From positions 1-44,241 of the forward strand of contig JANLGW010000107.1 of NCBI GenBank assembly GCA_024653965.1: a stretch of 44,241 nucleotides of DNA, in the 5' to 3' direction. Numbering within the stretch: position 1 is the stretch's first letter; every line of letters starts with the position of its first letter. Below the pieces are notes generated by a model. It did not search any database, was not told the DNA's origin, and saw only the letters and a program-made list of their open reading frames with translations. Both the position numbers and the translations under genes were made by a program. Shown here in pieces: positions 5,291 to 35,080 of this stretch. Origin of the DNA: Rhodospirillales bacterium (GTDB lineage: Bacteria; Pseudomonadota; Alphaproteobacteria; Rhodospirillales; Magnetovibrionaceae).

Positions 5291-6441
5291 AAATCGTATC
5301 TTTGACTGTACACCCGGCGATAGAGGTCTTCGTAACGGCGCACCATAGTCGTTAGGGGAAAATGGTGTTTGATGCGCAGCCGGGCGGCTTGTCCTTTGGC
5401 TTTGCGGGTGTCACAGGAGTCCTGGGATAGGCTCACCACGGCATCTGCGAGGGCATGGGCATTGCGTGCCGGGACAATCAGGCCGGTATCATCAATAAGA
5501 TAGGCGCTGTCGCCGACATCGGTTGCCACGCACGGGACTTCTGCGGACATGGCTTCGCCGATGACGTTGGGCGCGCCTTCGCCGTATGCGGAACTCAGGA
5601 CCAGGATGTCTATGGCAGAGTAAAAAGGGTTGATATCCTTTAAGGTGCCCAAAATGTGGACACGTTCTGACAGTCCTTGCTCCTTGATTATGGAAGATAA
5701 TTCCTGATTTTCAGAGGTGATGGAATCACCGCACAAAACGAAGTGGGCATTGGGGACTTTTTGCGCAACGCGTGCGGCAGCCTGAAGGAACATACGGTGA
5801 TCTTTTTGGGGATCATAACGGGATGGATTGCCGATCAGTATGGTGTCTTCAGTGATGCCCAACTTGGCTCTGAATGCCGCGCGTTGTTCGGGACTGTGGC
5901 TGTATACGTTCGTGTCGAAGCCGTTATTGAGGACCACCATGTTGGCTGCATCGTAACCCAGTTCAGTGTGGACACGGCACGCGGAGTGAGATCCGCAAAC
6001 GATGGCGCTGGGCAGCGAGGACGACAAGCGTGCGCAAGCCATGGCCGTGCGGATGGTGCTTTTTTTACTGTGCGTTTCGTCGAGCGTGCTTTGGCGCAAG
6101 TTCCATAACACCGGGGCGCTTGTGGTCAGGCGTGCGGCGATGCCGCCGATTAAATCCGCGTGGTACATCCAGGTTTGTACGAGGTCTGGTTTTTGCGAGC
6201 GTAGCTCTGCGCCCAGATGCGCAACGGGCATGACATTAACGTTGCCTTTAAGAAAATTCATAGCCGATACAATTGTGCCAGTAGCAATCATCGACTCGCT
6301 GAGTGCACCCATATCCGTGAGCGATATCACATTGTTTTCAAACCCATTCGTATCCATCTCGCGCAACAGGCGCAAGAGCACCTTTTCGGCGCCGCCGATG
6401 GATAGACCTGTGATGACGTGTGTGATGCGGATGGGCTTCAC
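5287..6441 (-). CDS. Family 4 glycosyltransferase
   Basis: This 384-residue GT-B enzyme has the classic N-terminal ITGLSIGGAEKVLLRLL loop of GT4 enzymes and the C-terminal donor site SSAYGEGAPNVIGEAMSAEV, where the EX7E-type glutamates sit. LNNGFDTNVY and IGNPSRYDPQKDH are further GT4 marks. The start is GTG at 6441, sharing GTGA with the stop of the upstream flippase gene, so translation is coupled. It is the last gene of the long minus-strand operon. Donor sugar and acceptor are not evident. Confidence 0.9.
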   Translation of the reverse strand: MKPIRITHVITGLSIGGAEKVLLRLLREMDTNGFENNVISLTDMGALSESMIATGTIVSAMNFLKGNVNVMPVAHLGAELRSQKPDLVQTWMYHADLIGGIAARLTTSAPVLWNLRQSTLDETHSKKSTIRTAMACARLSSSLPSAIVCGSHSACRVHTELGYDAANMVVLNNGFDTNVYSHSPEQRAAFRAKLGITEDTILIGNPSRYDPQKDHRMFLQAAARVAQKVPNAHFVLCGDSITSENQELSSIIKEQGLSERVHILGTLKDINPFYSAIDILVLSSAYGEGAPNVIGEAMSAEVPCVATDVGDSAYLIDDTGLIVPARNAHALADAVVSLSQDSCDTRKAKGQAARLRIKHHFPLTTMVRRYEDLYRRVYSQRYDF

Positions 6442-7790
6442 GCGGTCTCGCTTTCGGGGGTGCTCATGCTCTGACGGTATAAACGTTGGTAAAGATATGC
6501 CACGCCTAACAGATGCACGACGTTAACTGCTATCAAGGGTGCATATAACCCCAGTGCAGGAAAGAGCGCAAACAACAATATGACTTTGCCGACAGTTTCT
6601 ACGGCCGTTACGAATACCAGGGGAGATAAACGTACGGTCGAAAAGGCATAAATGGCAGGTAGGCGGGCGATCACCATCCAAAACATTGCTCCGCCGGCAA
6701 GGGGGTAGGCCCATGGTAGATTCGGAGTATGCTCCCAACCAACCCAAAGTGCGACCACACTCTGGCCGAACATGCCAAACCCTATGGCAGCAGCTGTAGC
6801 GAGAATGAGCATCCCCTTTTGAGCGCTGGCGTAGATGGTGCGCATACGTTCGTGTTCCCCACGAGCATCCATTTGAATCAGATAAGGAACCAGAGATTCC
6901 GGCAGTCGCCACAAGGCTTGCATGGTGACGTCGGCAATTTTCCAAACCAAGATGAAATCGGCCACCAGCAGTGGACCGCCCAGAACGCCAAGGATCAGCG
7001 TATCTGCCTGCAACAGCGTCAGCAATAAGGCCCCGTACACGGCGTAGCCCATTCCCATGGGGCCGATCAGGCGGCTTAAAATGGTGCGCCCGTGTGCTCC
7101 GGGCCAGCGGAGGTGTAAGCCTTGGCGTTGCATCAGAAGAAATGAGACAATTCGGGCGACCAGCACACCGCACAATAGGGCCGCAATGACGCCCATCAGC
7201 CCGCCCTCGCCGGATAAAATGGGCATAACGGCGAGCGCGAAGACCACCAGACTGATGACGCTCAGCAGGTTAGCCCAGGCTTGTTTGCCGATGGAAATGA
7301 GAACCAACCGATCCACATTCAAATCGTAAAGGGCTATGACGTATACGACACCCAATGCCACCATGCTCACGGTTTGCGCCCCAAGGGCCGGGGTGTCTGG
7401 GAACAATTGGCCCCTAAAAGCCCACACGACGGCAAAAGCCAGACTTGAAGTCAATGTAGCGTATACAAAAAAGATGATTTTGCTCAGGCCGTAGGTGCGT
7501 TCAAGCGCCTCATGATTATTATGAGCCGCGAGTTCGCCCATGATCCGTTGCGCGCCAGACGACATCCATCCGATCCCTAAGCCAAGATAGTTGACCGCCG
7601 CCAGCATGATCATCAGCACCCCGAATTCGGCTTTTCCGAGGTGGTGCAGATACAGCGGCACTAGCAATATCTGGACGATGATGTTGAGGCCGATATGGGC
7701 GTAGCTGCTGGCGACGCTCCAGCCATAATCAGGGTTGTTGGCAATGCGGCGTTTGATGTCGTGAAAGGCTTCGGTTACGCGGGCAGGCAT
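6438..7790 (-). CDS. Polysaccharide flippase, Wzx-like (MOP/PST family)
   Basis: This integral membrane protein is likely to flip undecaprenyl-diphosphate-linked repeat units across the inner membrane. It has about 12 hydrophobic segments spread over its length with an N-terminal SYAHIGLNIIVQILLVPLYL helix and LGKAEFGVLMIMLA, both typical of Wzx/RfbX-like proteins. The preferred start is ATG 7790, which forms TAATG with the stop of the upstream amidotransferase and gives 450 residues; an in-frame GTG at 7799 would add three residues. It overlaps the downstream GT4 by four bases. With the polymerase-like gene at 10610-13090 it argues for Wzx/Wzy-type assembly. Confidence 0.88.
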   Translation of the reverse strand: MPARVTEAFHDIKRRIANNPDYGWSVASSYAHIGLNIIVQILLVPLYLHHLGKAEFGVLMIMLAAVNYLGLGIGWMSSGAQRIMGELAAHNNHEALERTYGLSKIIFFVYATLTSSLAFAVVWAFRGQLFPDTPALGAQTVSMVALGVVYVIALYDLNVDRLVLISIGKQAWANLLSVISLVVFALAVMPILSGEGGLMGVIAALLCGVLVARIVSFLLMQRQGLHLRWPGAHGRTILSRLIGPMGMGYAVYGALLLTLLQADTLILGVLGGPLLVADFILVWKIADVTMQALWRLPESLVPYLIQMDARGEHERMRTIYASAQKGMLILATAAAIGFGMFGQSVVALWVGWEHTPNLPWAYPLAGGAMFWMVIARLPAIYAFSTVRLSPLVFVTAVETVGKVILLFALFPALGLYAPLIAVNVVHLLGVAYLYQRLYRQSMSTPESETA

Positions 7791-9664
7791 TAGGTGCACC
7801 CCCGTCCGGCTTGGAAACGTTGCAGCGCGTATAGCTTGGCGATCAAGATCGCAGGGACGTCGGGGCTGTTTTGGTCAAAGCGGCTTTTTAGCGTGTGCAG
7901 CGCATCGACATTGAATAGGCCACCAAAATCGTCCGGTGCTAAGAATGCTTCATCGAGGCGCGTTTTCCACGGCCCGCGCAGAACGGCCTCTTCCTGGACG
8001 AAATAGCCGAACCCGCGCTTGTGGGCTTTGAGGATGTCTTCAGGCAATCGCTCCCTTAAAGCGCATTTCAAAATCTGCTTGCCGCCACTGAAGTTTCGGG
8101 TTCGTTTCACCTTATCTGCGTAGGGGATGGTGAGCGCTAGTTCGATCAGGTCTTGGTCCATGAACGGGCATCGGACCTCAACTCCGTGAGCCATGGCGGG
8201 CAGGTCGCCCGCTATGGTGATGGCGTGGGCGTTTTCCTGCATCAGGCCCAAGAACGCAGCCTCATCTATGTAGCTTGTCGGCGCAGTCTCTTCGAACCAA
8301 GGCCCGGACCAAGCCTGAACCGCGTTAAAGTCCGGCGGCGTTTGAAACAGGTATGGCCAGAGGCTTCTGGCCTCGAAATTATAGAGGGCTGTTTTTCGCT
8401 GTCCCGGTGTGTGGGAGAGGACGCGTAGAGCATCACCCAATCGCCCAGTACTAAAGAAGTGGGACATGGCGCTTGCCAGAGGACGCATTAGCGATCCGGG
8501 CAGGGCGTCGTCCAGCCGTGACAGGCTGGCAAGACTCCGCGCCCCATCGTACCCATAAAACACTTCGTCCGCGCCGTGTCCGGCCATCACCACCTTAAGG
8601 CCATCAGCCTGAACGGCCTCGAATAGCATCATGGCATGGGTCAGCGGTAACGCCATGATCGGCTGGCCGTGAATGCCGAGCAACTTGTCGAACAGATCAT
8701 GCTGGCGGTCTGCGTCGAAATAAATTTCTTGATGGCGTGAGCCCAACATTTTGGACGCCCTCCGTGCGCGGACCAGTTCCTCGTCATCTACATTCAGTCC
8801 GAAGGCATAGGTGCGAATGCCTTTAATGCCTTGGCGGTTGAGGCAGTCAACGATGGCGGTTGAATCTACGCCACCAGATAATAACGCACCGATCTCCACA
8901 TCGGCCATACGCCGTCGATCCACGGCATGGTCGAGAGCCTCCAGCACATCGTCAGGGGACGTGGCTTGTGGGCTGAGGCTGGGCCTCCAGTAGCGTTCTA
9001 CATGCGCGACCCGCCCCTTTGCGATCCGCATTGTATGACCCGGAGGAAGTGAGCGGATGCCTTTGTAAATCGTCCAGGGATCGGGAATGTGGCGTACGTT
9101 GCGCAGAAGAAACAGGCCTATAGCATCGGCATCCATATTGAGGTCGATGTCCGGGACTTCAAACAGGGCGGGGATTTCAGACGCCAATGCGACACCTCGC
9201 CCAGATACTCCATAAAACAAGGGCTTTTTGCCCAAGGGATCTCGGGCGCAGAACAGATCGCCAGTGAGCGTATCTAAAATGGCAAAGGCAAACATGCCCT
9301 TAAGTTTGTGCACCACGTTCGCACCGATCTCTTCATAGAGGTGCATGATGACTTCGCTGTCGCTGTGGGACGAGAAGTGATGGCCTTTGGCTTCCAATTC
9401 TTGGCGCAGGTCTTGGTAATTGTAAATTTCACCGTTACACACCAGCGCCAAGGCTCCGTCTTCGCTGAATAAAGGCTGGCGGGCTTGTGCGCTCAGATCA
9501 ATGATGGAAAGGCGGCGGTGGGCGACGCCCGCATTTCCGTTCGCCAAAACAAACTGGCCGTGATCGTCCGGCCCCCGATGGATGAGGCGCTTTGACATGG
9601 CGGCCAAAACCGCTTCGGCGTCGCCGGACCTAGTATGGTAGCTCACACCTGTAATGCCGCACAT
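7790..9664 (-). CDS. asnB: Asparagine synthase-like glutamine amidotransferase (copy 1, divergent)
   Basis: This 624-residue protein has a class II glutaminase domain (about 1-200) and an ATP-pyrophosphatase synthetase domain (about 235-624). ATG 9664 is the right start because it places Cys at position 2 (MCGITG), the N-terminal nucleophile after Met removal, and follows an AGGGGAAG ribosome site; a longer frame to 9736 would bury that Cys. NGEIYNY, the SDSEV stretch and the PP-loop SGGVDST (263-269) are present. The usual SGDGGDE is replaced by AGHGADE (361-367) and the DEPxADSS region by HGQPIMALP. The substrate is therefore probably not aspartate. In glycan loci such enzymes can convert sugar carboxylates to amides; that role here is inference. 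Confidence 0.88.
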   Translation of the reverse strand: MCGITGVSYHTRSGDAEAVLAAMSKRLIHRGPDDHGQFVLANGNAGVAHRRLSIIDLSAQARQPLFSEDGALALVCNGEIYNYQDLRQELEAKGHHFSSHSDSEVIMHLYEEIGANVVHKLKGMFAFAILDTLTGDLFCARDPLGKKPLFYGVSGRGVALASEIPALFEVPDIDLNMDADAIGLFLLRNVRHIPDPWTIYKGIRSLPPGHTMRIAKGRVAHVERYWRPSLSPQATSPDDVLEALDHAVDRRRMADVEIGALLSGGVDSTAIVDCLNRQGIKGIRTYAFGLNVDDEELVRARRASKMLGSRHQEIYFDADRQHDLFDKLLGIHGQPIMALPLTHAMMLFEAVQADGLKVVMAGHGADEVFYGYDGARSLASLSRLDDALPGSLMRPLASAMSHFFSTGRLGDALRVLSHTPGQRKTALYNFEARSLWPYLFQTPPDFNAVQAWSGPWFEETAPTSYIDEAAFLGLMQENAHAITIAGDLPAMAHGVEVRCPFMDQDLIELALTIPYADKVKRTRNFSGGKQILKCALRERLPEDILKAHKRGFGYFVQEEAVLRGPWKTRLDEAFLAPDDFGGLFNVDALHTLKSRFDQNSPDVPAILIAKLYALQRFQAGRGCT

Positions 9665-9674
9665 GGCGCTTCCC

Positions 9675-10613
9675 CTAGCCGTAACGCCGCAGGATGCGGG
9701 CCTTTTTAGCTGTACCAACAAGCACGTTGATCGCACCGGGACCCAGCGTGATCATGAGTAAGGCGGCTATAGTCTCCAAGGGAGCGGTCCAGCGTGCACC
9801 AATTTTCCACAGCGACCAAGCCCGCGCGCGCTGGCCTGCGATGGCGGCGAAGACGGCCTGGCGTAGACGTCGTCTACCTAAGTTCTGGGGAGCGTAGGTG
9901 CGGTATGCGGGTTCGAAGTCTTTGAAGACAAAGTCATAACAGCGCACCACCCGGTTCGCCGTTTGCGGGCTGCACATGCTTGAGGTCATGGAGCCTGGGC
10001 GGTCGGTGTGATAGATGCGTAAGACTTCGGCGCTGACCCACAGGTCTGCGTGTTCGGCAAAACTCAAATAGGTCCACAGTTCACACCCGTAGGGCTCGCC
10101 TGGGTCGCGGTAGCCTTGGCTGACACGAAGGGCATCGCCGCGAAATATTGGCAGGTATTCCCCCATGTGCCGTTCATTGAGCATATCGTCGAAACTGAGG
10201 CGGCCAGTGTAGTCAGGATCGGCGACGGTGCTGTCGCCCGTTTGCGTTTCGCAGGCGCTGAAGCACAGCGGCGCATCAATGGGCCAAGTTTTAAGAATGC
10301 GTGCCAAGCGTGACTGCCAATCGGTAACCAAGGTATCGTCGGCATCCAACAAAATGATGATCTCGCCATGGGAGTTGGCAATGCCCAAATTCATTGCGGC
10401 GCACTTGCCCTGGTTGGGTTCGTGACTGAGATAGTGAACTCCAGCAAAACCGTCGACGACCGATTTTTGAGCCGCGTGATCGGGACTGCCATCATTGGCG
10501 ACGATGACCTCTAATTGCCAGCCTTTGAGCAAGGAGGGCGCAAACACCGACGCCAAGGTTTCACCAAGCGTCGCACTCGCCTTATAGGCGGGGATGACAA
10601 TGGAGACGATCAC
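9675..10613 (-). CDS. Family 2 glycosyltransferase
   Basis: This 312-residue inverting GT-A enzyme starts with VSIVIPAYKASATLGETLAS and shows VIVANDGSPD for nucleotide binding and ILLDADDTL as the DxD metal site (near residue 95). A hydrophobic C-terminal segment (about 275-300) may anchor it to the membrane. The start is GTG 10613, overlapping the stop of the polymerase fusion (GTGA). The gene ends 10 bp before the amidotransferase, whose ribosome site overlaps this stop. The position between a polymerase and an amidotransferase suggests that it acts on the same repeat unit; specificity is unknown. Confidence 0.88.
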   Translation of the reverse strand: MIVSIVIPAYKASATLGETLASVFAPSLLKGWQLEVIVANDGSPDHAAQKSVVDGFAGVHYLSHEPNQGKCAAMNLGIANSHGEIIILLDADDTLVTDWQSRLARILKTWPIDAPLCFSACETQTGDSTVADPDYTGRLSFDDMLNERHMGEYLPIFRGDALRVSQGYRDPGEPYGCELWTYLSFAEHADLWVSAEVLRIYHTDRPGSMTSSMCSPQTANRVVRCYDFVFKDFEPAYRTYAPQNLGRRRLRQAVFAAIAGQRARAWSLWKIGARWTAPLETIAALLMITLGPGAINVLVGTAKKARILRRYG

Positions 10614-13090
10614 GATGTCCCCGCAAATTTTGTGCGGACCAAATTTAGGCTAGCGGCACTGGCCCTGGTGCGGAACTCCGGGTCACGGGCCATTTTGAGC
10701 ATAGCCTCTGTCAAGGCATCTTCAAATTTTGAAGTATCAGCGATCCGCGCCAAGTCTCTAACTTTAGTCGTATCCGAAAATAACGGGCTAGGTTCAGTTC
10801 CCGACCAGATCGATAGAGGGGCTTCCAAAAGCAAGCCGTTGATTTGGTCTTCAACCATCTCTTTAAGCGCATAGACATCGGTGGCGATCACAGGCAAACC
10901 GTGGGCGAGGGCTTCGAGAACCACCATACCGAAGGAATCAAAATAGGTGGGATGGACCAGAACGTCGGCGGTGGATAAAAACCGTTCGGAAATCTCTTCA
11001 CGCGTCAGGCTTGCCGGGTGTAAGCGCACATTGGCGATGTTTGCATCAACGCCTTCAGACAAGTGCGTGACCAAGTCTAGCTCGGCCCCCGGAAATTCAG
11101 CAACAACCCGCTTAAAAGCCCGAAGCAAAGCCGCGCCGCCTTTGATCTCAAATTGGGTGGAGACGAATAAAAAGCGACAGATGTCGGCGGATTGCGTGCG
11201 CGGTTCCGTCACTTTCACAGTGATCTTCGGGTACGTAACAACGGCCTTGGACGCAGCGAGCTCACCATATTCCCGGTACACGCCGTCTAGGCACGCTTGG
11301 CTCAGACAGCGAATTTGTAAGCAGCGGGTGCTTTCCAGGAATGCCTGGATAATCGGACGGTAAAGCCTCACCGCTAAGGTGTTGTACCCGGTGAAGGCAT
11401 AGGGGTTGTCGATGTCGATGATGAACGGTCCCTTGGTGATCAGTCCACCCCACACATAAATTACGGCGTTTTTGGGTGCATCTTTGGGGCGGCGTTTGAG
11501 GTTGATCAGCGGCAATATGGATTTCCACGAGGATCGGGATGGAGTCAGAGCCTGATCGCGACTGACCTGAGCGCCGGAACGCCGTGTGGAGATGTTGGTG
11601 TTGACAGCTTCACTTGCAGGCCAATTGCGAACAGTGTCCAATTGACGATCTCGCAGATAGGCATGGGGGTAGAAGTAAACGCGAGATGTTCCCCACCATT
11701 TTCCTCCAACCAAGCCAACCGTTTCCCCAGCTAGGCCGAAGGCGGCATGAAGGACCGGACGCAACCCGAACATCAAGGCTGCGGGGATAGAAAACAGCAT
11801 CACGCTTTGGACGATAATGGTTCCACCACGGACCCAATTGAACATGTAGATGAAAATGAACAGAGATAGCGCCACTTGGGCTGGGTGGGAAGCTTCATCC
11901 CAGAAAGTGCGTTCTGCAGCACCGAGTAGCCGTCCAAACGCATACGCTATGACTAGGGCGAATGGTAGCCCGAACCCAAACGAGAAATCTACGGCGAAGG
12001 ACATGGGGATGGTGGCGTCGGCAAAGTTACCCTTGAATATTTCAGGGTATAGCCAGTGGAATTGTTCCATACCGCCGTATATGACGGGTTTATTCACCCA
12101 AATTACACGAGGGATAAGGCCGAAGCCAAAATTGAATAGCCAGGATAAGCCTTGATCCACCCCGATCAGCAATTCGATCCAATTGGCTCTTTCAAACAAC
12201 CTTACAAGGTGTTCAATCCCCTCGAATGACGAATGAATTAAAAGAAACGGACCATCGAAGATTTGTATTGATAGGGATAATATTTCTTGGCTTGTGTGCC
12301 CTTCGGATATAAACAGGAAAATGTTGCGCACGAGTTCTAGGCCACCAGCGGCAAATACTGTGGCAATGATGGCTAATATAGAAAATGGCCACATACGTTT
12401 GTCGCGCGTGACCAGCAAAACGATCAATGCCAACGCTGCGCCAGCCATGAGCCGCCGCGTAAAAAGCATTCCCGATGCCCAGAATGTAATGCCGACCATG
12501 ATGGCAAGTAGAAGATAGATGGGCGGATTTAGGGGTTTGTCGGAGTGCACAATGATCCAGCCGATTAGTGCGAGTGTTCCGTATAGTGTAAACTCAGGGA
12601 GCAGCCATAGAGGCCCGTTCCCCATGCGACTGGCTTGGTAGAAGGCGCCGTCGAAGTCCCCTAAAGTTTTTCTGCCGAGTATGAATAAGCCTATGGTTGT
12701 TACACATATGATCAAAGAAAGTCCCGTTGATATTCTTGTGAATGATGGCGATGCCGTGGGGTTTCTGGGCTTGAGGTTTTCGATATCTATCGGTGCGACG
12801 GTGGCTTGTTCCCGTCCCCACATAGCCGATGTCCACAAAAGGGCTGAAAAGAGAACAGCTAAAGACAGAACCATTTCATCAAAATGGTACCCTCTGTCTA
12901 TTGGGATGGTTTGTAAATTTATGAGTTGCTGGCTGACAAAATATGCACGTACGGGAAAGGCAATAATAAATAGGAATGTGAAATACCAAAAAGGTGAAAG
13001 CGCTAATTGATGCGCAGGTTTGATGCGGATATCTCGCGCCAATGCCCAAAAAGGCAGGGCAATGCTTAGTATGATTGCAGATTCAATCAT
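10610..13090 (-). CDS. Wzy-like polymerase fused to family 4 glycosyltransferase
   Basis: This single 826-codon frame combines two modules. Residues 1-445 contain about ten hydrophobic segments and a large loop with [10 protein letters not shown] (326-335), a pattern typical of Wzy-type repeat-unit polymerases, followed by an [14 protein letters not shown] helix. Residues 446-540 form a linker that includes [20 protein letters not shown], which looks like the original N-terminus of a separate glycosyltransferase. Residues about 541-826 are a GT4 domain with [11 protein letters not shown] and the donor-site stretch [20 protein letters not shown] 13090 shares ATGA with the upstream amidotransferase stop. 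A cytoplasmic glycosyltransferase tethered to a periplasmic polymerase is unusual. The module boundaries are visual; the polymerase role is inferred from topology and motif. Confidence 0.8.
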
Positions 13091-15027
13091 GACGGAGCAC
13101 CGTGATCACGCCACCCTTGGAACATTAACACCGTCCACAGGGCGTACTGCCAGTTACGGTGGCCAGATAGGTGTTCTGACCATAGCCCGCGCACGACTGA
13201 GACGTTGAGGTAGCCGTCATTGCTGAGACGCTGCTCAGATAGAAGGTCTTCCGCCCATTCGCGCAGATCCCCCCGCAGCCAGTCGCCGATGGGCACACCG
13301 AAGCCCATCTTGGGGCGCTCCATGAGTTTCTGTGGCACATGGCGGTACAAAACGTCGCGTAAGACAGCCTTGCCTTTGCCGTCGCGTACCATGAAGTCAC
13401 GCGGCAGGGTCCAGGCGAATTCCACTACCCGGTGGTCAAGCAATGGCACACGCGCTTCTAATGACGCGGCCATGGAGGCCCTGTCCACCTTGGTCAGGAT
13501 GTCGTCGGGTAGGTAGGTGAGCATGTCCAGCATCTGCATGCGTCCTGTGGGGTCAGGACGGTCTTGGGCGGTGGTTTTATCCCACAGCACACCTTTGTAC
13601 TCGGTGCCAGCCAGAATGGCCGAGGACGGGTCTGGCCATTGGCTAACTAGGCGTCGATAGACTTGATCAATGCTGTCCGCGCCCAATACCCCGGCAATTT
13701 TATGCAGTTTATCGCCAAATTGTGGGGGGATGCACTTGGACGGGATCATACTCGCCAGTCCGTCCCATCCTACGGGTGGTACGCATTTGATAATCCTTGC
13801 CGCCAGAGACCGTGCAAAGCCGGGCACGAGTTCTGCTTTATCCCAGATACGCGTGGCCCAGAAATAGCGGTTGTAGCCCGCAAACACTTCGTCCCCGCCA
13901 TCGCCTGAAAGCGCCACGGTGACATGGTCGCGGGTGAGGCGCGACAGTAACAAGGTGGGGATCTGTGAACTATCGGCAAACGGTTCGTCATACCAGCGCG
14001 GTAGTTCAGGAATAACCTTCAGCGCATCTTGGGGGGTGACAAACAGTTCAGTGTGATCTGTTTTTAAGTAATTGGCTATGGCCTTGGCGTGGGCGGACTC
14101 ATCGAACGTATTTTCATGAAAGCCAATGGAAAAACTTTTCACCGGTCGGTCGCTGGCTGCTTGCATCAAGGCAACGACGGTGGATGAGTCAATGCCGCCA
14201 GACAAAAATGCCCCCAAAGGCACGTCGGCGGCCATGTGCGTTTGGACGGCATCCATGAGATGTTGTTCCAGTTCCGTCACGGCTTGTTCATAGGAGCCTC
14301 TAAACGGGGTTTTATATCCAGCTCGTGCGATGGTGCGCACATCCCAGTAGTGATGCAGGGACGGCTCTGCCCCCACGCGGGTGGTGAGAATATGACCCGG
14401 CGGTAGTTTGTAGACATTTTTGAAGATGGAATGGGGCGCGGGTACATAGGCATGGCGCAGGTAACTGGCCAACGCATTTCTATCGATGTCTTCGTCAATT
14501 AGGTTTGTTGCACGGATCGCCTTGAGTTCCGATGCAAACAGATACGTATCATCGGCTTTCGCCCAATATAGCGGTTTGATGCCAAGACGATCACGCGCCA
14601 GTGTGAGCGTGCGAGACTCAATATCCCACAGGGCGAAAGCAAACATTCCGACGCATTTCTGTAAGGTTTTTTCTACCCCCCAAGTGGCGCACGCCTCTAA
14701 AAGCACGGCGGTGTCCGAACCGCCTTTAATGAGGTGGCCAGCCTTAGTCAGCTCCTTGGCAATGTCAGAGTAATTGTAGATTTCGCCATTATAGGACAGG
14801 ACAAAACGCCCACTGGCTGAGACCATGGGCTGGTGTCCGCCGGGGCTGCAATCGATAATAGCGAGGCGGCGGTGGCTAAGGGCAACGCCAGCGTCTTGGT
14901 CGCACCATACGCCGTGGTCATCGGGGCCGCGGTGTTCAAGTGTATCGCTCATGCGCACAGCCAAGGACTTAAGACCGAGTCTTTGAGTTTTGGCATTTTG
15001 CGTAAAAAGGCCTGCGATGCCACACAT
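13087..15027 (-). CDS. asnB: Asparagine synthase (glutamine-hydrolysing)-like amidotransferase (copy 2)
   Basis: This 646-residue two-domain enzyme hydrolyses glutamine and uses the ammonia to amidate an ATP-activated carboxylate. It starts MCGIAG with Cys2 as nucleophile, followed by RRLAIID, NGEIYNY and [10 protein letters not shown] of the glutaminase domain. The synthetase domain has SGGIDSS (276-282), DEPFADSS and SGDGGDE, all canonical. GGGGAAA about ten bases upstream is a possible ribosome site. It overlaps the downstream polymerase fusion by four bases. Canonical residues would allow ordinary asparagine synthesis, but placement between glycan genes suggests amidation of a uronic acid or related sugar acid. 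Copies 2 and 3 look closer to each other than to copy 1. Confidence 0.9.
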
Positions 15028-15054: not shown

Positions 15055-16356
15055 TCAGCGCCGCCGTGTTCCCCTGCAAAAGACAATCAACATGGATAAG
15101 GCGAATAACGCCCCTGAGACAAGTGCCGTGAAAAAGCTGAGCGGACGCAGCCAATGATAACTGGTGAAAGGGGTATAGCCGAAATACTGCTGAGGCTGGG
15201 CGATAAATCGCCAGAGTTTATAGGCGTAGCGGGTCATATCCGGCGCATCTATTTGATAACGACCGTCATACCCGCCAATATAGATGATGAAATTTTCCCG
15301 ATGCATAAACGCCACCACGTCAGCGGAAACATCCCGAAAGGACTTCATGCGGACTGCAGGCCCGATCATGCGTGCCTGAATGTCATCTAAGTTGTCGGAT
15401 ATTGCGGCCATGTAGACGTCGGCACCGCTGAGCACATGACCGTTGTGGTATTGCAGATAAGAAATGTCATTGGTGGGGTCTACATAGGCCCAGCGTCCTT
15501 CATCGGCCAGATAGCTTTCGGAAAAGGCATGGGAACCCAAATCCACTGTGCCCATGGCTCCGCCAGTAAATAGATTGCGCGTGGGAATCCCAACGGCATT
15601 GGCAAAGTATCCATAGACCAAAGACCATTGACGGCAAAAGAACTTGGCGCGTCCAGCTTCGCCTTCCGTGAATAATGTGTACGGCGTCAGGCTGTTCAGT
15701 CGTTCGTCTGGAGTGCCATCGGGCATATGATCCCGCACAAAGGTGGTGATGAAGGTAATCTGTTCGCGCAATGGCGCGGTGGCATCGAATCCAGCGTTCA
15801 GCAAAACTTGTTTAGCGGCTTGAGCCTCAGGACCTGTGCGGGTTTCGACGTCTGGAATCCAGCGCGCAAAATCTTGGGGCGGTTCCATCAGGACTGGGAT
15901 GTTGGCACGATTAAGCTGGATCTGATCGTTGGCGACGTTTTGCACACCAAATGTTTCTTTGGGTGCGAAGAAAATGTTGAGGCGCACGGCATCGATGGCG
16001 GGTGATGCGATAGAACAGTTCTGCGGAGTTAGCGTGTAATCAAAGGTCCCCATTTGCAAAGGGAGGGTGGGCGATGCACCCTTGATTATGGCGCTTTCTT
16101 TGCTGTTAATTTTTACGATCCAATCCGTGCAGAGGGAATTTCCACTGAAGATTATTTTTACAGCTTGAGGCTTTGGATTGAGCCCGGCGATGGCAAACGT
16201 GGATGTATTTACTGGGTAAAGTTCACCTAGGGAAGCGGGAATGATTTCGGTTTTGGCATAGAGGTCGGCTCGCGCTTTGTAGAGGTACAAAAAACCGCCT
16301 CCGGAGCCTACACATAGGACAAGCAAAGCCCGAAGGATGATATGATTAAAACTCAT
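15055..16356 (-). CDS. Membrane-anchored transglutaminase-like protein
   Basis: This 433-residue protein has an N-terminal anchor (about 8-27) and a C-terminal membrane segment (about 405-427). Between them is a periplasmic-looking region with a transglutaminase-like core: Cys241 in FFCRQWSLVYGYFANAVGIP, His276 in GSHAFSESYL and Asp293 in YVDPTND. This Cys-His-Asp order and spacing match the transglutaminase/cysteine-protease-like superfamily. Residues 40-160 could form a beta-rich domain. It overlaps the upstream methyltransferase by ATGA and lies 27 bp before amidotransferase copy 2. Family members act as peptidases, amidases or acyl transferases; which applies here is not visible. Association with carboxamide-making enzymes makes an acyl transfer to or from the glycan conceivable, but this is speculative. 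Confidence 0.75.
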   Translation of the reverse strand: MSFNHIILRALLVLCVGSGGGFLYLYKARADLYAKTEIIPASLGELYPVNTSTFAIAGLNPKPQAVKIIFSGNSLCTDWIVKINSKESAIIKGASPTLPLQMGTFDYTLTPQNCSIASPAIDAVRLNIFFAPKETFGVQNVANDQIQLNRANIPVLMEPPQDFARWIPDVETRTGPEAQAAKQVLLNAGFDATAPLREQITFITTFVRDHMPDGTPDERLNSLTPYTLFTEGEAGRAKFFCRQWSLVYGYFANAVGIPTRNLFTGGAMGTVDLGSHAFSESYLADEGRWAYVDPTNDISYLQYHNGHVLSGADVYMAAISDNLDDIQARMIGPAVRMKSFRDVSADVVAFMHRENFIIYIGGYDGRYQIDAPDMTRYAYKLWRFIAQPQQYFGYTPFTSYHWLRPLSFFTALVSGALFALSMLIVFCRGTRRR

Positions 16357-20456: not shown

Positions 20457-22184
20457 TTAACAGCCAATGGATAGCCCGGGTTGAGCGCGCGTGAAAGTGC
20501 CGTCAAATCCATTCCAAACCCACAAGGGGGCGCCAACTCTTGATTCAATAACGGTTTTGGGGGCTTCACACGATGCGTAGGTAGCGATCTGCCCATCCCA
20601 CTTCACCAAGAGTTTTGTTGGGCGGGAAACGAACCAGCGGGTATTCCATTCCTTAATCGTCAGTTTGTCTGACTCAGAAACAGCCTGGCCCCAAAAAGCA
20701 GACATAGCAAAAGGGCCCATTTGCATATTGGTTTCGATGGCCGGAACCCAACCGTCTTGTTCTGGCCCTATGTATAGGTATAGTGCTTGATCTCCAAGCT
20801 CTCCAAATTCAATTTTAGGCGCATTGTCATGGGCTTGCTGCTGAATGCTCCAGGCGTTGTGCCATTCAGCTCCGCGAAATACAGTACCCATGAGTAAGGT
20901 GCCCCATAAAAGAGTGCCCAGTGTCTTGGTAAGTTTGGGGCTTATGCCTGTCTCAAGAATGGTGGCCGTACATAAGGCAATCAGCATGGCAATCCAGATG
21001 TTTATAACAATCAGCACACGACCGCCAATGCCGGTAGACCACATAACGTAGTGACCTGCGGCATAAGCTACCCCTCCCAAACACAAGCCGATGAGGCAAA
21101 GGACGATGGCCATCAAGACAAAATGCTTGTAGTGGTCTTTGGCGGCATTCAAGGCGAACCCAGAAAATATTAAAAGCGTGACAATCAGTGGTAGTGTTAA
21201 GACGGCAGTTTCCAAAAATGCCATGGGAAGCGGCAATGTGACGGCAATCGCACATGTGATCAAAGCGGCCCAAAACAATACCGTGCCGATTAGCTTGTAT
21301 GGATTTGTTGACTGAGGTTTTTTTAGAATGAACTTTGCAAAAATAAAAATGGAGAGGCTAAAGGCAATAAAAACACAGACTGTTACAGCCGAAGTTGTCA
21401 ACCATGATATGCCCAGGTTACGTGCGCCAAAACCGAACCAGTGAAAAAAGGTTTCGATGAAATCAGCGTTGAAGGCCCGTGAGCCCTCTGCTCCGGTGGC
21501 TCTCATATATCGGTTGAACCCCAAGGCAGAAATTTGAGCCATTCCAGCAGAGGCCATCCAAAAAAGGGTGTGGATATTGTTCCAGCCAAGGCGCCAAGCG
21601 GTAAATGCAATGATCAGAAAAATTTGCAAGTATATCGCTTCGTAGTTCAAATAGCCGATCAAGTTGAAGAAAAATACGCTGATGTAGGGCCAGGGTGAAT
21701 TTGTGGTCCATTTTTCGATCATAATCTGGCCGGATAGGCACAGAGCGATAATTGAAATTAAAGCGATTGTACCGGTCGGCCAGAAGTTGATGGGGGCACC
21801 CCATGGAAAAACAAGCCAGAAAACTCCGGCGACAGAGGCCGCCCATGTGCTTGTTTTGGGTGTAAAAACAAGGCGCAACAAGCTGGAACAGAAGTGGTAT
21901 AGCGCAATGGAAGTGGCGAAGACGATTGCAATGACGTACAGGTGCCAGACCATCGGCGAGGGCGGTAAAATTGATCCCAGCAGAAATCCGGCGAAGCGAA
22001 ATACGGGTCTGTTTTGTGCAAGTTCAAGGGCTGCCCAACGCTCAGCAGAAAAGGCGGGTGTTGTCAGGTCTGGCACCAACAGGAAAAACCAATCGTCAAC
22101 ATAAAAGCCGAGAACGAACGGGTGCCAAGCGAGTGCTGCCAGTGATGCCAAAGCCCAGAAAATATAAACACGTCTATCGACCAT
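20457..22184 (-). CDS. Multi-spanning membrane protein, probable GT-C glycosyltransferase
   Basis: This 575-residue protein has roughly eleven membrane segments up to about residue 440 and a soluble C-terminal part (about 445-575), probably periplasmic. The first loop after helix 1 contains FYVDDWFFL, an acidic pair where GT-C enzymes keep their catalytic Asp. That topology is typical of polyprenyl-phosphate-sugar-dependent transferases such as O-antigen-modifying enzymes. A GtrB/DPM-type polyprenyl-phosphate glycosyltransferase two genes upstream (24144-25157) could make the donor. It starts one base after the amidotransferase 3 stop. No family name is certain. Confidence 0.7.
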   Translation of the reverse strand: MVDRRVYIFWALASLAALAWHPFVLGFYVDDWFFLLVPDLTTPAFSAERWAALELAQNRPVFRFAGFLLGSILPPSPMVWHLYVIAIVFATSIALYHFCSSLLRLVFTPKTSTWAASVAGVFWLVFPWGAPINFWPTGTIALISIIALCLSGQIMIEKWTTNSPWPYISVFFFNLIGYLNYEAIYLQIFLIIAFTAWRLGWNNIHTLFWMASAGMAQISALGFNRYMRATGAEGSRAFNADFIETFFHWFGFGARNLGISWLTTSAVTVCVFIAFSLSIFIFAKFILKKPQSTNPYKLIGTVLFWAALITCAIAVTLPLPMAFLETAVLTLPLIVTLLIFSGFALNAAKDHYKHFVLMAIVLCLIGLCLGGVAYAAGHYVMWSTGIGGRVLIVINIWIAMLIALCTATILETGISPKLTKTLGTLLWGTLLMGTVFRGAEWHNAWSIQQQAHDNAPKIEFGELGDQALYLYIGPEQDGWVPAIETNMQMGPFAMSAFWGQAVSESDKLTIKEWNTRWFVSRPTKLLVKWDGQIATYASCEAPKTVIESRVGAPLWVWNGFDGTFTRAQPGLSIGC

Positions 22185-22185
22185 C

Positions 22186-24108
22186 TTAAAAAACTACTCT
22201 TTGCAGGTCCGTCAGTGGCGGATGAGGGTTCTTGCGTAAAATCCGTGCGTGATACCAAGCGACCAATGTCATAAGGCCCCACAACTCAAAACCCAACTGG
22301 GCTTTACCAGACATGTGTAGGTCTTTTGCTTTGATGACCTCGGCAGCATTTAAAAAGGATAGGTCCTTTAGCCGCGTTGGCGACAAGAGGTCTTCCGCCA
22401 AGTGGCGGGCCTCATCGCGGAGCCAGCGGTGAATGGGAATGCTAAACCCTTGCTTCTTGGCTTCGCTGACGTGGTGCCCGAGTTTGCGCTCGGCTAGTTT
22501 CCTGAGGGCATGCTTTGGCTTGCCGAACAGGGGTGTTTTCAGATGATCAGGGAGCGCCAATGCAAATTCAGCCAGCGGAGGGAAGAGGAAGGGTGCTCGT
22601 GCCTCTAAGCCAAATGCCATGGTCATGCGGTCGGTTTTGGTCAAGATATCATTGGGGAGGTAATCGGCAATATCAGCCTTCTGCAAATCGAGAAGGCTGG
22701 GGTAGGGGGCAAGGTTGTGCCGAGAGGTCAATAGTTTAAGTGCATCTTGTGCGGCTTTCTTGGCGGCATCGTCAAAAACAAAGTTCTTGGCATCATGGGG
22801 TAGCCAAGTGCCGTTCCAGGAAAAATGTGCTTGAGCGGAATTCAGGTTTGCCGCACGCAAAAAACGCGATGCTTTGTAACTGGTGCTGACTTTTGTCGGA
22901 GATACGGGGATCATCTTTGCTAACCCGCTCAGTGCATTACGAATGGGTTGGGGCAAGAAGCGCATCGTTGAGCGGTGAATGGCGGTCGCTTGGTATGTTA
23001 AATAGCCGCCGAATAGTTCATCGCCACCATCGCCGCTGAGCGCGACTTTATAATCCTTTGCAACTTCCCGCGCCAAAGTCCACACGGCAAGTGCCGAGGA
23101 ATCGGCAAGCGGGTCATCCAGCCGTTCAACGATGGATACAAAATCCTCTAAGGCATCGCTGGTTAAAGTCACGCGGCGTATTTTTAGGCCGAGGGATTGA
23201 GCGACCCGTTTTGCATTGCTAAATTCGCTATACGTTGGAACATCAAAATCAAGACAGTAAGCGTCCTTGATGTCACTCTGACGAACAGCACTCTCGGCAA
23301 CCAAGGATGAATCAATTCCTCCGGACAAAAAAATGGTGACAGGGACATCGCTACGCAAAGCCATGCTGACGGCGTTGTCCACGAGATTTTCTAATTGACC
23401 AAGAGCTTCTTCTAAGTTGGCGTTGATATTGGGATGTTCGGGAGGAGTCCAATAACGATCTTCTGTAATACCATTGATGCTGTATCTCCTCCATGTGGCG
23501 GGAGGGAGACGTCTAATGCCTTTTGCCAAGGTGCGATTCCCTGGCACATAGTTGAGGCACAAATATCCTCCTAATGCTTCAAGATCGATGTCGGCATGAA
23601 AATCTTTAAGACGGAAAAATGCGCCGAGTTCTGAAGAAAATGTTACACCGCCATTCTCTTCAAAAAGAAACAAAGGTTTTTCGCCGAAACGGTCACGTGC
23701 GACAAATAAGTCTCCGTTGGTGAGGTCAGAGATTGCAAAGGCAAACATGCCCTGTAACTTCAGACATACATCTGCACCCCACTTGCGATAGCCTTCAATA
23801 ATGACTTCTGTATCGGAGTTGGTTATGAAGGTGTGGCCATAAGATTGTAACTCAGACTTTAGCTCCAGATAATTATAGATTTCACCATTGAACACAATCA
23901 CATATTGGCGGTCATGGCTGCTCATAGGCTGCAGACCATTCGCAATATCAATGATGGACAGTCTGCGATGACCGAAAAAAAAGTAATCTTCCGACCACCA
24001 TGCACCACTGTCCGGACCTCTATGTTTTAGGTCATTGGTCGCGGCGCACAGGTGTTGGAGATCACCGAGGTTGCGATCAGGAGCGTATCGACCAAACATA
24101 CCGCACAT
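22186..24108 (-). CDS. asnB: Asparagine synthase (glutamine-hydrolysing)-like amidotransferase (copy 3)
   Basis: This 640-residue enzyme begins MCGMFG with Cys2 as glutaminase nucleophile and has RRLSIIDIANGLQPM, NGEIYNY (74-80) and NSDTEVIIEGY. The synthetase domain shows SGGIDSS (262-268), DDPLADSS and SGDGGDE, close to canonical. The C-terminal basic segment AKKQGFSIPIHRWLRDE is usual for the family. It is tightly followed by the GT-C gene. Three such genes in one glycan locus make carboxylate amidation of sugar acids more likely than housekeeping asparagine synthesis. Its AT-rich sequence differs from copies 1 and 2, suggesting separate acquisition. Confidence 0.9.
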   Translation of the reverse strand: MCGMFGRYAPDRNLGDLQHLCAATNDLKHRGPDSGAWWSEDYFFFGHRRLSIIDIANGLQPMSSHDRQYVIVFNGEIYNYLELKSELQSYGHTFITNSDTEVIIEGYRKWGADVCLKLQGMFAFAISDLTNGDLFVARDRFGEKPLFLFEENGGVTFSSELGAFFRLKDFHADIDLEALGGYLCLNYVPGNRTLAKGIRRLPPATWRRYSINGITEDRYWTPPEHPNINANLEEALGQLENLVDNAVSMALRSDVPVTIFLSGGIDSSLVAESAVRQSDIKDAYCLDFDVPTYSEFSNAKRVAQSLGLKIRRVTLTSDALEDFVSIVERLDDPLADSSALAVWTLAREVAKDYKVALSGDGGDELFGGYLTYQATAIHRSTMRFLPQPIRNALSGLAKMIPVSPTKVSTSYKASRFLRAANLNSAQAHFSWNGTWLPHDAKNFVFDDAAKKAAQDALKLLTSRHNLAPYPSLLDLQKADIADYLPNDILTKTDRMTMAFGLEARAPFLFPPLAEFALALPDHLKTPLFGKPKHALRKLAERKLGHHVSEAKKQGFSIPIHRWLRDEARHLAEDLLSPTRLKDLSFLNAAEVIKAKDLHMSGKAQLGFELWGLMTLVAWYHARILRKNPHPPLTDLQRVVF

Positions 24109-31962: not shown

Positions 31963-32958
31963 CTATTCTGCCACCAAGTGGACTAAGTGGTCAGGGTGGT
32001 TGTTTGGCTGGTCGACTCGCCTATTTTTATTACTGGCATATACCAGGGCATCGCCGCGATCATAAGTTTGGTCGCAGCCTTTACATGGCAGGTCGCAGCT
32101 ATCGAAACTTAGCGAATTGTGAACTTCACGTACGTACTTCATTTTGTCGCTACTCAATATGTCAATCAGTGGCTTTTCATTGAGGTTTCCGACGACGAGT
32201 TGGTGATTGTAGTCGAAGCAACATACAGAAACATCCCCGTTGGTGCGAACAAATGGATTGCCTTTAAAAGGCCGCCCGCAAGTATGTTGCTTATCTTTTT
32301 CTTGTCTAGCGGAACTACGGAATGCAACTTTTTCAGTGCTCTCGTCACCACCGTAGTTGTGGGGGCGCCAGATCGCAATTTCATCTGCAAGTGGTTCCCA
32401 ATATTCGCGCCATTGCTCCGTTTCATGCTCATTTTCTGGCAAAATCAGAAAGCTAACCATAACGTAGGGGCGTTCAGTTTTAGGCAGTGCTAAAAGACGG
32501 TGAATGTTTTTTTGGACTTGCTCGAATTTTAAGCCTCCGCCATGTACGGCTTCATAGCTTTTCTTAGAAAAACCATAATTGCTAATGCGAATCGTATCTA
32601 AGTATTTACAGGCAAGGTCGAAATTTTTGCCTTGAAGGGCATGTCCTGTGGTGCTGGTATAAGTTATGACCGAGGGGTACGCAGTTTTAACATACTCAAG
32701 TTTCTCGGCATATTTAGGGTCAAGAAAGGGGTCCCCGAATCCGCATAGGTCTAAAGACGTTACGCCCAGAGAGACACTCTGATCAATGACTGAGCGGAAC
32801 AATGCGTTGTCCATATGGCTCCATTTGAATTGATAATCATCCCTGGGACACATGACGCAATCGGCACCGCAATGGGTGGTGTTTTCAACGGTTAACTCTC
32901 GAGAGTTAATAACCCAGCCTGTAGGTGATTCTGCGGGGTTTTTAGCTTGCCGGATCAT
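31963..32958 (-). CDS. Radical SAM enzyme with SPASM-type C-terminus
   Basis: This 331-residue enzyme has the cluster motif CX3CX2C at Cys30-Cys34-Cys37 (THCGADCVMC), which binds the [4Fe-4S] cluster that cleaves SAM. LDLCGFGDPFLDP is the GGE-like SAM contact region. The C-terminal third has further cysteines in HTCGRPFKG, GDVSVCCFDYN and SCDLPCKGC, the spacing of a SPASM or twitch auxiliary-cluster domain. Such proteins modify peptides, or deaminate, dehydrogenate or epimerise sugars and alcohols. No peptide substrate gene was found nearby and no B12 domain is visible, so a sugar substrate is the simplest inference. It overlaps the capsule-type glycosyltransferase by ATGA. Confidence 0.85.
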   Translation of the reverse strand: MIRQAKNPAESPTGWVINSRELTVENTTHCGADCVMCPRDDYQFKWSHMDNALFRSVIDQSVSLGVTSLDLCGFGDPFLDPKYAEKLEYVKTAYPSVITYTSTTGHALQGKNFDLACKYLDTIRISNYGFSKKSYEAVHGGGLKFEQVQKNIHRLLALPKTERPYVMVSFLILPENEHETEQWREYWEPLADEIAIWRPHNYGGDESTEKVAFRSSARQEKDKQHTCGRPFKGNPFVRTNGDVSVCCFDYNHQLVVGNLNEKPLIDILSSDKMKYVREVHNSLSFDSCDLPCKGCDQTYDRGDALVYASNKNRRVDQPNNHPDHLVHLVAE

Positions 32959-34346
32959 AGGGTTGCCTTTGCGTCTTGTGGGTAATTAGCAATGTTTTCG
33001 ATGACCTCCGTGAGAGCTATATGGTAGGGCTCTCCTGGGGTTTCAACAAAAAATTTCATATCATTGAGTATGGTTGTTTTGAACTCTGGATCATCTGACT
33101 TTGCAATGAGGTCACGAATGCATTCGATGAGATCATCATCTTGATAGGCTTCTGATATGGTTGCTAGAGAAAACATTTCTTGAAAATGAATGAGGTCTTT
33201 CCTTACTTCGATACTTTTTGATTTGCTAGTCATAAGGCACATGACAGGTTTCCCATGAAGTGCGCCTTCAAGAATAATTGTTGAAAATGGTGAAATTAAA
33301 ACATCAATAGCAGATAGAATGTCATGGGTGCGTTTGTAATCGGCGGTATCCGGGGTTTTGTCACCTTTGCTCAGGCGAGTCAGATATTCTCTCATACTGT
33401 TTTCAATAACAATATTTTTCCATTGGACGTTAATTATCTCAGCCCCGCCTGGTCCACCGCCATTCCCCCAGGGGTGAGGGCGGTAAACTATGGAAATGTT
33501 ACTTATTTCTCCGCGCGCTATGCGCTCATCCAAGATCTTCAGTTCCGCCAGTTCGTTTGTGTTACGGCTGCTGCCAGCATAAAGAACAATCTTATTTCTC
33601 AAATCAATACCGTGTTCCATGCAAAATTGTTCGCGGGTAATGCGTGGCGGGTTCCGAAACACTTCAAATTGTGCGGCGCCAAGCTTAATAATACGATCTA
33701 GCGGAGTCTTCATGAAGTGATGTGTATGCTGCTTCGTTTGTTCTCCCCAAACAGTGATCCAGTCAGGCACCCCCGCCATAGAACGCTTTAAACTAGGATT
33801 GTCCCAGGAGTTCATGAGAATCACCGTTGGAATTGATCTCCTCTTTCCTTCGATGATGAGATCACTAATGTAACAGCCATCAAAAGTACTCGGATGAATA
33901 TTGATGTCCGGTTGCTCTTGATCAAGGATATTAGTCAGTTCCGTGCAGGGGCTCTCAGCCAATCTTTTTTGAACGTATCGCTTGAACAATGTTTTGAGAA
34001 TTGGTAGCTGGGCCAGGGTAAATAATAGGGCAGCCTTAGAGCCGGCTGCGTATACATACATGCTCCGACGTTTTCTTAGAGATTTGTTGAATGTAAGACG
34101 CATTTGGTCAGCAAGAAACAACCAAACCCACATCAGAACTCGGTCTTCAGGAATATCGACGCGATGTATGGGGGCTTTAAAGACATCTGGGGGAGTGGCG
34201 ACGGTGAAGCGTTTATACTCTGGTGAGGGCATTACATAACGTACGTCATGTTTCTCAATCAGGTTATCAAATGCACCAGCCTTCAAAAAATTCCGAATAA
34301 CGAAATCTGATTCGATGAAGATTAGAATTTTGAGTTTTTGCTTCAT
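32955..34346 (-). CDS. Capsule-type GT-B glycosyltransferase
   Basis: This 463-residue protein resembles capsule polysaccharide/CDP-glycerol phosphotransferase-like GT-B proteins. The signs are NIHPSTFDGCYISDL and TVILMNSWDN in the N-terminal half, IVLYAGSSRNT starting the C-terminal domain, SIVYRPHPWG (the RPHP element) and DVLISPFSTIILEGALHGKP as the nucleotide-sugar site. A basic hydrophobic stretch (about 100-125) may contact the membrane. It is coupled by ATGA overlap to both the cytidylyltransferase upstream and the radical SAM gene downstream. Being directly behind the CMP-sugar synthetase, it is a candidate nonulosonate transferase, but this is inference from position. Confidence 0.72.
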   Translation of the reverse strand: MKQKLKILIFIESDFVIRNFLKAGAFDNLIEKHDVRYVMPSPEYKRFTVATPPDVFKAPIHRVDIPEDRVLMWVWLFLADQMRLTFNKSLRKRRSMYVYAAGSKAALLFTLAQLPILKTLFKRYVQKRLAESPCTELTNILDQEQPDINIHPSTFDGCYISDLIIEGKRRSIPTVILMNSWDNPSLKRSMAGVPDWITVWGEQTKQHTHHFMKTPLDRIIKLGAAQFEVFRNPPRITREQFCMEHGIDLRNKIVLYAGSSRNTNELAELKILDERIARGEISNISIVYRPHPWGNGGGPGGAEIINVQWKNIVIENSMREYLTRLSKGDKTPDTADYKRTHDILSAIDVLISPFSTIILEGALHGKPVMCLMTSKSKSIEVRKDLIHFQEMFSLATISEAYQDDDLIECIRDLIAKSDDPEFKTTILNDMKFFVETPGEPYHIALTEVIENIANYPQDAKATL

Positions 34347-35080
34347 TGATTGTTTTTTTCATATGTGTTTTGAAGTTGATTTTGTGACAGCAAGTAGTTG
34401 ACGAATTGGAGATCCCACTCCGTATCAATGCTGACATGGTGGCCGTCTATGATCAGTGCGCCGGTCCGCTTTCCTTTGATCGTATTTTGCTCTAAAAGGC
34501 AGTCTCGCGTGATTGCGTAGGCGATGCCATTGCGGTGGTATACAGGCTTAAGCTGCTGGCGAGCAATGATGTGACTTCCCTTCGGGTCGTAGTAGTCCAT
34601 GGTATTGTCTTCCTTTAGGACCAATTGTTTGAGAGGGTGGCTTTTGCCATCGGTTTCGGACACGGTCCACACCGCATCCCAGCTGCCATCGACGAGCATG
34701 TGTATCGTGTTGCTGACGTTTTCAGGTGTTCGCATTGGAGAGGTCGGCTGCAGCATCACCACAATGTCGTAGCGGGTGTTGTCGAGTTTTTCCATTTCAA
34801 CAAGTGCATGGCTCAGGACATCCCAGTCACCGATGCGATCTCCAGCAATCGCTTCGGGGCGGCGGAATGGAGCCGCCAGACCAGATTCTTCCGCAACGCG
34901 TGCGATTTCTTCGTGGTCCGTGGAAACCACTGCACGCGTGATTTCTGGTACTTTTGCGCAAAGATGACCCACCAGTGCAACAAGCGGAATGCCCTGCACA
35001 GGGCGGAGATTCTTAAGGGGGATGCCTTTGCTTCCGCCTCTGGCGGGAACAACGGTAAGAACACGTTTGTTTCCAATCAT
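34343..35080 (-). CDS. neuA: CMP-nonulosonate (acylneuraminate) cytidylyltransferase
   Basis: This enzyme activates a nine-carbon acid sugar with CTP to the CMP-sugar. The 245-residue protein begins VLTVVPARGGSKGIPLKNL, the pyrophosphorylase signature of NeuA/PseF/LegF/KdsB-like enzymes. It continues with VVSTDHEEIARVA, VVMLQPTSPMRTP and GIAYAITRDCLL, and ends with HHVSIDTEWDLQFVNYLL, the metal-binding Asp region of the family. Given LegB, PtmE and NeuC-type genes upstream, the most likely product is CMP-legionaminate or a derivative (LegF/PtmB role); specificity versus CMP-Neu5Ac cannot be seen. It lies 21 bp after a methyltransferase gene. Confidence 0.92.
   Translation of the reverse strand: MIGNKRVLTVVPARGGSKGIPLKNLRPVQGIPLVALVGHLCAKVPEITRAVVSTDHEEIARVAEESGLAAPFRRPEAIAGDRIGDWDVLSHALVEMEKLDNTRYDIVVMLQPTSPMRTPENVSNTIHMLVDGSWDAVWTVSETDGKSHPLKQLVLKEDNTMDYYDPKGSHIIARQQLKPVYHRNGIAYAITRDCLLEQNTIKGKRTGALIIDGHHVSIDTEWDLQFVNYLLSQNQLQNTYEKNNQ

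Follow-up and report, generated by a model that had tools for sequence, protein, structure and literature searches.

The window, by which we mean the whole stretch of 44,241 nucleotides that was analysed, carries a cluster of surface-glycan genes, and among these is a single gene whose product begins with a polytopic membrane module and ends with a GT4 glycosyltransferase (Table 1). The open reading frame has 826 codons, starts with ATG and includes no internal stops, which agrees exactly with an earlier note on this DNA that had described one uninterrupted frame across both modules. Each end of the gene overlaps its neighbour by four bases, with the stop of the upstream AsnB-type amidotransferase gene at 13087 and the start of the downstream GT2 glycosyltransferase gene at 10613, as in a tight operon. 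A conserved in-frame internal start with a Shine-Dalgarno or ribosome site does not occur at the junction.

Table 1. Features of the fused gene and its surroundings, with positions in the window.
Feature	Position	Strand	Basis
Fused gene, putative Wzy-type membrane half and GT4 half, 826 aa	10610..13090	-	Single open frame; full-length collinear orthologues in 7 other genomes
Membrane half, residues 1-470, predicted to have about 11 TM helices and a GT-CB (WaaL/SEDS/Wzy)-like fold	11681..13090	-	AF2, Foldseek, VIA-align, hhalign
Large predicted periplasmic loop, residues 263-374, near the C-terminal end of the membrane half	11969..12304	-	9-sequence alignment, topology count
IPRxxW..KP loop motif, residues 326-335; P327, R328, W331, K334 and P335 invariant	12086..12115	-	9-sequence alignment
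Linker, residues 442-470, amphipathic, varying among orthologues, cytoplasmic by the positive-inside rule	11681..11767	-	Alignment, topology
Residues 472-491, first GT4 strand, old N-terminus of the free-standing enzyme	11618..11677	-	Comparisons of VWFYPHSVLRPRQLD, VWFYPHAQLRERQLD and VFFYRHSYMRDRQLDT
GT4 half, residues 471-826	10613..11680	-	PF13692 and PF00534 above cut-off; Foldseek GT4 matches; 58-82% identity to orthologues
GT4 catalytic segment D718-x7-E726, EX7E variant	10913..10939	-	Orthologue alignment
AsnB-type amidotransferase, conserved upstream neighbour, 4-base overlap with the fusion	13087..15027	-	
GT2 glycosyltransferase, conserved downstream neighbour, 4-base overlap with the fusion	9675..10613	-	
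Wzx-like flippase, kept in 8/8 fusion loci	6438..7799	-	NF041503 WZX_like, 2.3e-6, under the curated cut-off; synteny
CTP-transferase	34343-35080		
NeuB with cupin domain	37684-39219		
CBS and nucleotidyltransferase protein	41419-42471		
NeuC-like protein	42468-43694		

There are seven other genomes, among 60 related genomes searched, that encode the same fusion collinearly over residues 1-826 at 47-66% identity, and the alignment of these orthologues runs in an uninterrupted frame from the first residue to the last, across the junction. When the search is extended to 317 genomes of the order, it recovers the same set of fusions and one split case, in genome G589. The carriers span two bacterial families and include, among others, the isolate Magnetovibrio blakemorei MV-1, three Magnetovibrio MAGs and a Rhodospirillales MAG. 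Gene order is kept in all of the fusion loci (AsnB, fusion, GT2, AsnB, Wzx, GT4), with two genes inserted between Wzx and the last GT4 gene in M. blakemorei. The two halves differ in evolutionary speed, in that the GT4 half has kept far more identity among orthologues (58-82%) than the membrane half (34-55%). The earlier note had proposed such a search for the fusion in related genomes, and because the fusion is encoded end to end in seven other genomes with the same gene order, it is not an artefact. The idea that a missed stop or a frameshift has joined two genes in assembly or sequencing can draw on G589, in which the two genes are separate with a 4-base overlap, but the uninterrupted frame found in eight assemblies from two families, including that of the M. 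blakemorei isolate, makes this explanation negligible.

The GT4 half matches PF13692 (4e-17, 63 bits, cut-off 27) and PF00534 (9e-15, 55 bits, cut-off 26.4). Foldseek indicates a GT-B fold like that of solved GT4 enzymes in the predicted structure of this half, and the full-chain model matches GlgM, MshA, BshA, PimA and WaaG with a probability of 1.00 and E values of about 1e-7 to 1e-5. Residues K650 and E726 are invariant, and the first glutamate of the EX7E motif is an aspartate in seven of the eight fused members and a glutamate in the M. blakemorei orthologue. This domain had been described as a complete GT4. The Pfam models cover just its C-terminal Rossmann domain, but its length of 356-360 amino acids is equal to that of free-standing relatives, and it can therefore be regarded as an entire enzyme that forms its own subfamily.

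The earlier note had put the junction near 11,640; judged from residues 472-491 at 11618-11677, it lies near 11680. The suggestion that the segment at this point is the old N-terminus of a stand-alone enzyme proved correct, because free-standing GT4s begin there and because G589 encodes the halves in separate genes that lie side by side. There are two genomes that carry such free-standing GT4s and lack the fusion, namely G357 (loci L030 and L065) and Alphaproteobacteria SJ804 (L037). The proteins of L030 and L037 are 49-52% identical to the GT4 half, are equal to it in length, and have the same start segment, with YPH..LR.RQLD near the start; VWFYPHSVLRPRQLD and VWFYPHAQLRERQLD are found near the N-termini of the free-standing enzymes. 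The loci L030/L065 and L037 have the same GT2 gene downstream and AsnB genes alongside, and a Wzx-like gene is also present in G357. Thus, the GT4 enzyme has belonged to clusters of this kind without a fused membrane half. These enzymes differ from the fusion in being unfused, and the G357 cluster has a separate PF04932 protein in place of the fused membrane half.

In G589, which belongs to another family of the same order, the two halves are adjacent genes that overlap by GTGA. The wzy part ends in ...TTGTGA, and the GT4 gene can start at the overlapping GTG, which is followed by NTSHETSDVFFYRHSYMRDRQLDT; VFFYRHSYMRDRQLDT stands directly after this GTG start. This is the sole unfused N-terminal half found among the 317 genomes of the order, and among 385 genomes of the class that were searched by profile there are no distant free-standing relatives of it. 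Trees of the GT4 half and of the N-terminal half give AU p values of 0.43 to 0.51 for the alternatives in which the G589 split state is ancestral or results from later fission. It is also possible that this state is a frameshift in that single draft assembly. The two f11 loci and split G589 share an additional GT4 gene (L064:8516-9676 and L067:1129-2295), which follows AsnB and precedes the wzy part; it is not present in the window.

The membrane half is predicted to have an N-out topology with 11 transmembrane helices, inner loops rich in lysine and arginine, and a tail that places the GT4 domain inside. This positive-inside prediction is as the earlier note had proposed, and the computation supports a cytoplasmic GT4 half and a periplasmic IPRxxW..KP loop. 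Nucleotide sugars are cytoplasmic. The large loop of 112 residues carries the invariant polar residues E290, H294, D312, N320, R328, K334, Y338, Q343 and D368, and 20 of the 22 invariant polar residues in the nine-sequence alignment lie at or near the predicted outer face. Conserved residues on the outer face, combined with a long outer loop near the C-terminus, constitute the published pattern of Und-PP-sugar polymerases (PMC10920833), and the membrane half as modelled fits this pattern.

The family of this half is less readily assigned. The earlier note had raised the concern that it might match a non-polymerase membrane family, and no such match was found. However, there is no curated polymerase model at cut-off either: Pfam and NCBIfam scans of the membrane half and of the scanned orthologues give nothing meaningful, PF04932 does not match the membrane half, and TIGR04370 and PF14296 have no match in its own genome. 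The N-terminal half finds nothing when its profile is compared with the sequences of the PDB or when its model is compared with a viral structure library, and a plasmid collection yields generic GT4 matches only. We therefore call the protein Wzy-like and do not assign it to TIGR04370 or PF14296. The absence of a family model is usual for Wzy proteins, the diversity of which is too great for one family (PMC10920833).

When the nine-sequence profile of the N-terminal half is compared by hhalign with a profile of seven TIGR04370-related proteins, the probability is 96% over 263 columns, which is good rather than final evidence, given that the partner set is small and was chosen in part by the IPRxxWxxKP motif. 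The value is still 89% when the IPRxxWxxKP segment is masked, and the controls (reversed profiles, profiles with block-shuffled columns, and four membrane or membrane-associated proteins that are unrelated) range from 0.1 to 4.8%. Single sequences compared with the same N-half profile reach 0.1-18%. A similar IPRxxW..KP-type motif is found in the Wzy-like proteins L042, L044, L046, L049, L054 and L073.

The predicted fold points in the same direction. An AF2 model of the N-terminal half alone, built from nine sequences, has a pLDDT of 73 and a pTM of 0.77, with pLDDT values of 39-57 over the loop motif. In the full-length model, built from eight sequences, the membrane loop has a pLDDT of about 30, too low for reading the placement of one domain relative to the other. 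The top Foldseek match of the N-half model is the ligase WaaL (7tpg; probability 0.97, E 0.026), with the next match at a probability of 0.12. The top three VIA-align matches are FtsW, RodA and WaaL, which align over 238-248 residues with Z scores of 6.9-7.1, whereas the next match has a Z of 5.5 and covers 100 residues. For helical proteins, however, a Z near 7 is a modest value, and it falls within the range that a common helical arrangement can produce. Taken with topology, these comparisons support by computation the placement of the membrane half in the polymerase/ligase superfamily. The earlier description of it as a polymerase-like multi-helix module therefore agrees with the profile and the predicted fold, although no curated polymerase model reaches its cut-off.

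We consider the gene product most probably to be a two-sided inner-membrane enzyme, in which a cytoplasmic GT4 glycosyltransferase is joined to a divergent periplasmic Wzy-type polymerase with a WaaL/SEDS-like fold, and we assign this reading a probability of roughly 0.73. On the cytoplasmic face, the GT4 half would add one sugar to the repeat unit, carried on undecaprenyl diphosphate, from which the surface polysaccharide of the cluster is built. The neighbouring Wzx-like flippase would then move the unit across the membrane, and on the periplasmic face the N-terminal half would join units by means of its large loop. Perhaps, by analogy with WaaL, arginine and lysine residues on the outer face hold the diphosphate, whereas an acid or histidine on that face assists the acceptor. 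The substrates and the activity of both halves are inferred in this scheme. The fusion probably arose when adjacent wzy and GT4 genes were joined, the products of which would already have worked in one pathway.

Few enzymes of bacterial surface glycans are as poorly conserved and as poorly characterised as the Wzy polymerases, and how they select only finished units is an open question. Where a polymerase is naturally fused to a glycosyltransferase of the same pathway, the fusion identifies a protein physically joined to the polymerase and points to the enzyme that supplies its substrate. The tether might help to restrict polymerisation to finished units, and it could link the completion of a unit to polymerisation; control of chain length is conceivable. 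The strongest form of this proposal is that the GT4 adds the very sugar that the polymerase site of its own chain recognises, which would make this the first bifunctional Wzy, coupling completion to polymerisation and possibly setting chain length. We regard this form as tentative, and rather doubtful. It is rivalled by the view that, with both halves active, the fusion plays no part in coupling and is a neutral joining of overlapping genes that keeps the halves together and in equal amounts. The halves are separate overlapping genes in G589, so fusion is not obligatory, the linker sequence is variable, and the unequal conservation of the two halves is as for independently evolving modules. 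However, the fusion persists down to about 35% identity in the N-terminal half and across two families, with fission possibly in G589 only. Neutral joining is a real contender, although we put it somewhat short of even, and because it rivals the coupling step only, it overlaps with the confidence given to the two-sided enzyme.

Other readings concern the membrane half itself. It might be a ligase, as in Brucella WadA, such that the GT4 finishes an acceptor glycan and the membrane half transfers the finished polymer onto this acceptor. Among two-sided enzymes, only WadA is well described (PMC9938171), and the single best Foldseek match is the ligase WaaL. Several observations nevertheless render a ligase unlikely, as PF04932 finds no match, the profile similarity points to TIGR04370-type polymerases, and the gene adjoins a Wzx-like flippase in a unit-assembly cluster. 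Moreover, the only curated polymerase/ligase-family protein found in this genome is a WaaL-like one with PF04932, which is encoded separately on a different contig (L092:4528-5790; G000:C25), near mannose-nucleotide genes. By our judgement a polymerase is favoured over a WadA-like ligase by about five to one, because the cluster order that includes Wzx is conserved, the scanned genes of the window include no second polymerase candidate, and the WaaL-like protein is encoded elsewhere. The absence of a curated family match would also suit a non-catalytic anchor for the GT4, but the invariant residues with charged or polar side chains are concentrated at the predicted periplasmic face, which an anchor for a cytoplasmic enzyme would not require, and the free-standing GT4s lack any such anchor, which makes this reading very improbable.

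The earlier note had stated that Wzy and glycosyltransferases are normally separate proteins. This statement needs one qualification, in that WadA joins a GT25 domain to an O-antigen ligase (PMC9938171, PMC10920833). Its N-terminal cytoplasmic GT25 domain adds the last core sugar and its C-terminal domain is a periplasmic O-antigen ligase (PMC9938171, PMC10920833), and according to its authors it was the first bifunctional enzyme whose active sites lie on the two faces of the membrane (PMC9938171). The combination of GT25 and GT121 is found in Brucella and some other Rhizobiales (PMC9938171, PMC10920833). Like WadA, the fusion is predicted to combine in one chain a soluble cytoplasmic glycosyltransferase and a polytopic sugar-diphospholipid enzyme with a WaaL-like fold and a periplasmic loop, on opposite faces according to the predicted topology. 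However, the glycosyltransferase comes first in WadA and is a GT25, whereas the GT4 of the fusion is C-terminal, and the fusion thus lacks the WadA domain set of an N-terminal GT25 and a C-terminal GT121 ligase. In addition, WadA is a ligase that works with an ABC-exported O-antigen, whereas the fusion has a probable polymerase that lies beside a Wzx flippase and lacks PF04932. The fusion probably represents the WadA plan with reversed domains, another glycosyltransferase family and a polymerase, so that a differently built precedent is already known.

With Wzy proteins (CAZy GT122-GT135; TIGR04370) the fusion shares a polytopic fold, a long loop on the outer face, towards the C-terminus, in which arginine, lysine and tyrosine are conserved, and a Wzx neighbour in a glycan cluster, and with the TIGR04370-related proteins it also has the IPRxxW..KP motif in common. 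It differs from them in its C-terminal GT4 and in being too divergent for the curated models. WaaL (7tpg), RodA (6pl6) and FtsW (8p1u) are the best structural matches of the N-half model, but their sequence identity is 8-11%, the rmsd is about 5.5 Å over about 240 residues, and there is no sequence-profile match. A described fusion of Wzy with a glycosyltransferase was not found in the open-access literature that was searched. After WadA, the fusion would be a second, differently built enzyme that is active on either face of the inner membrane, and joining of this kind would thus seem to have happened more than once. The gene is carried by the isolate M. blakemorei MV-1, and a natural split form exists for comparison.

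Two AsnB-type amidotransferase genes flank the fusion in all of the fusion loci, and amide-bearing sugars are therefore likely in the glycan. There are three such genes in the window (7790-9736, 13087-15027 and 22186-24108), and their products resemble the XrtA/PEP-CTERM EPS amidotransferase family, under the model cut-off. A transglutaminase-like protein with hydrophobic ends and a weak PF01841 match (15055-16356) is encoded next to AsnB in several of the fusion loci. Further along is a 575-amino-acid protein (20457-22184) that has a hydrophobic N-terminal region and matches no Pfam or NCBIfam model. The glycan cluster also includes a radical SAM/SPASM protein (31963-32958), and the window has a group of genes for a nonulosonic (sialic-type) acid between 34343 and 43694.
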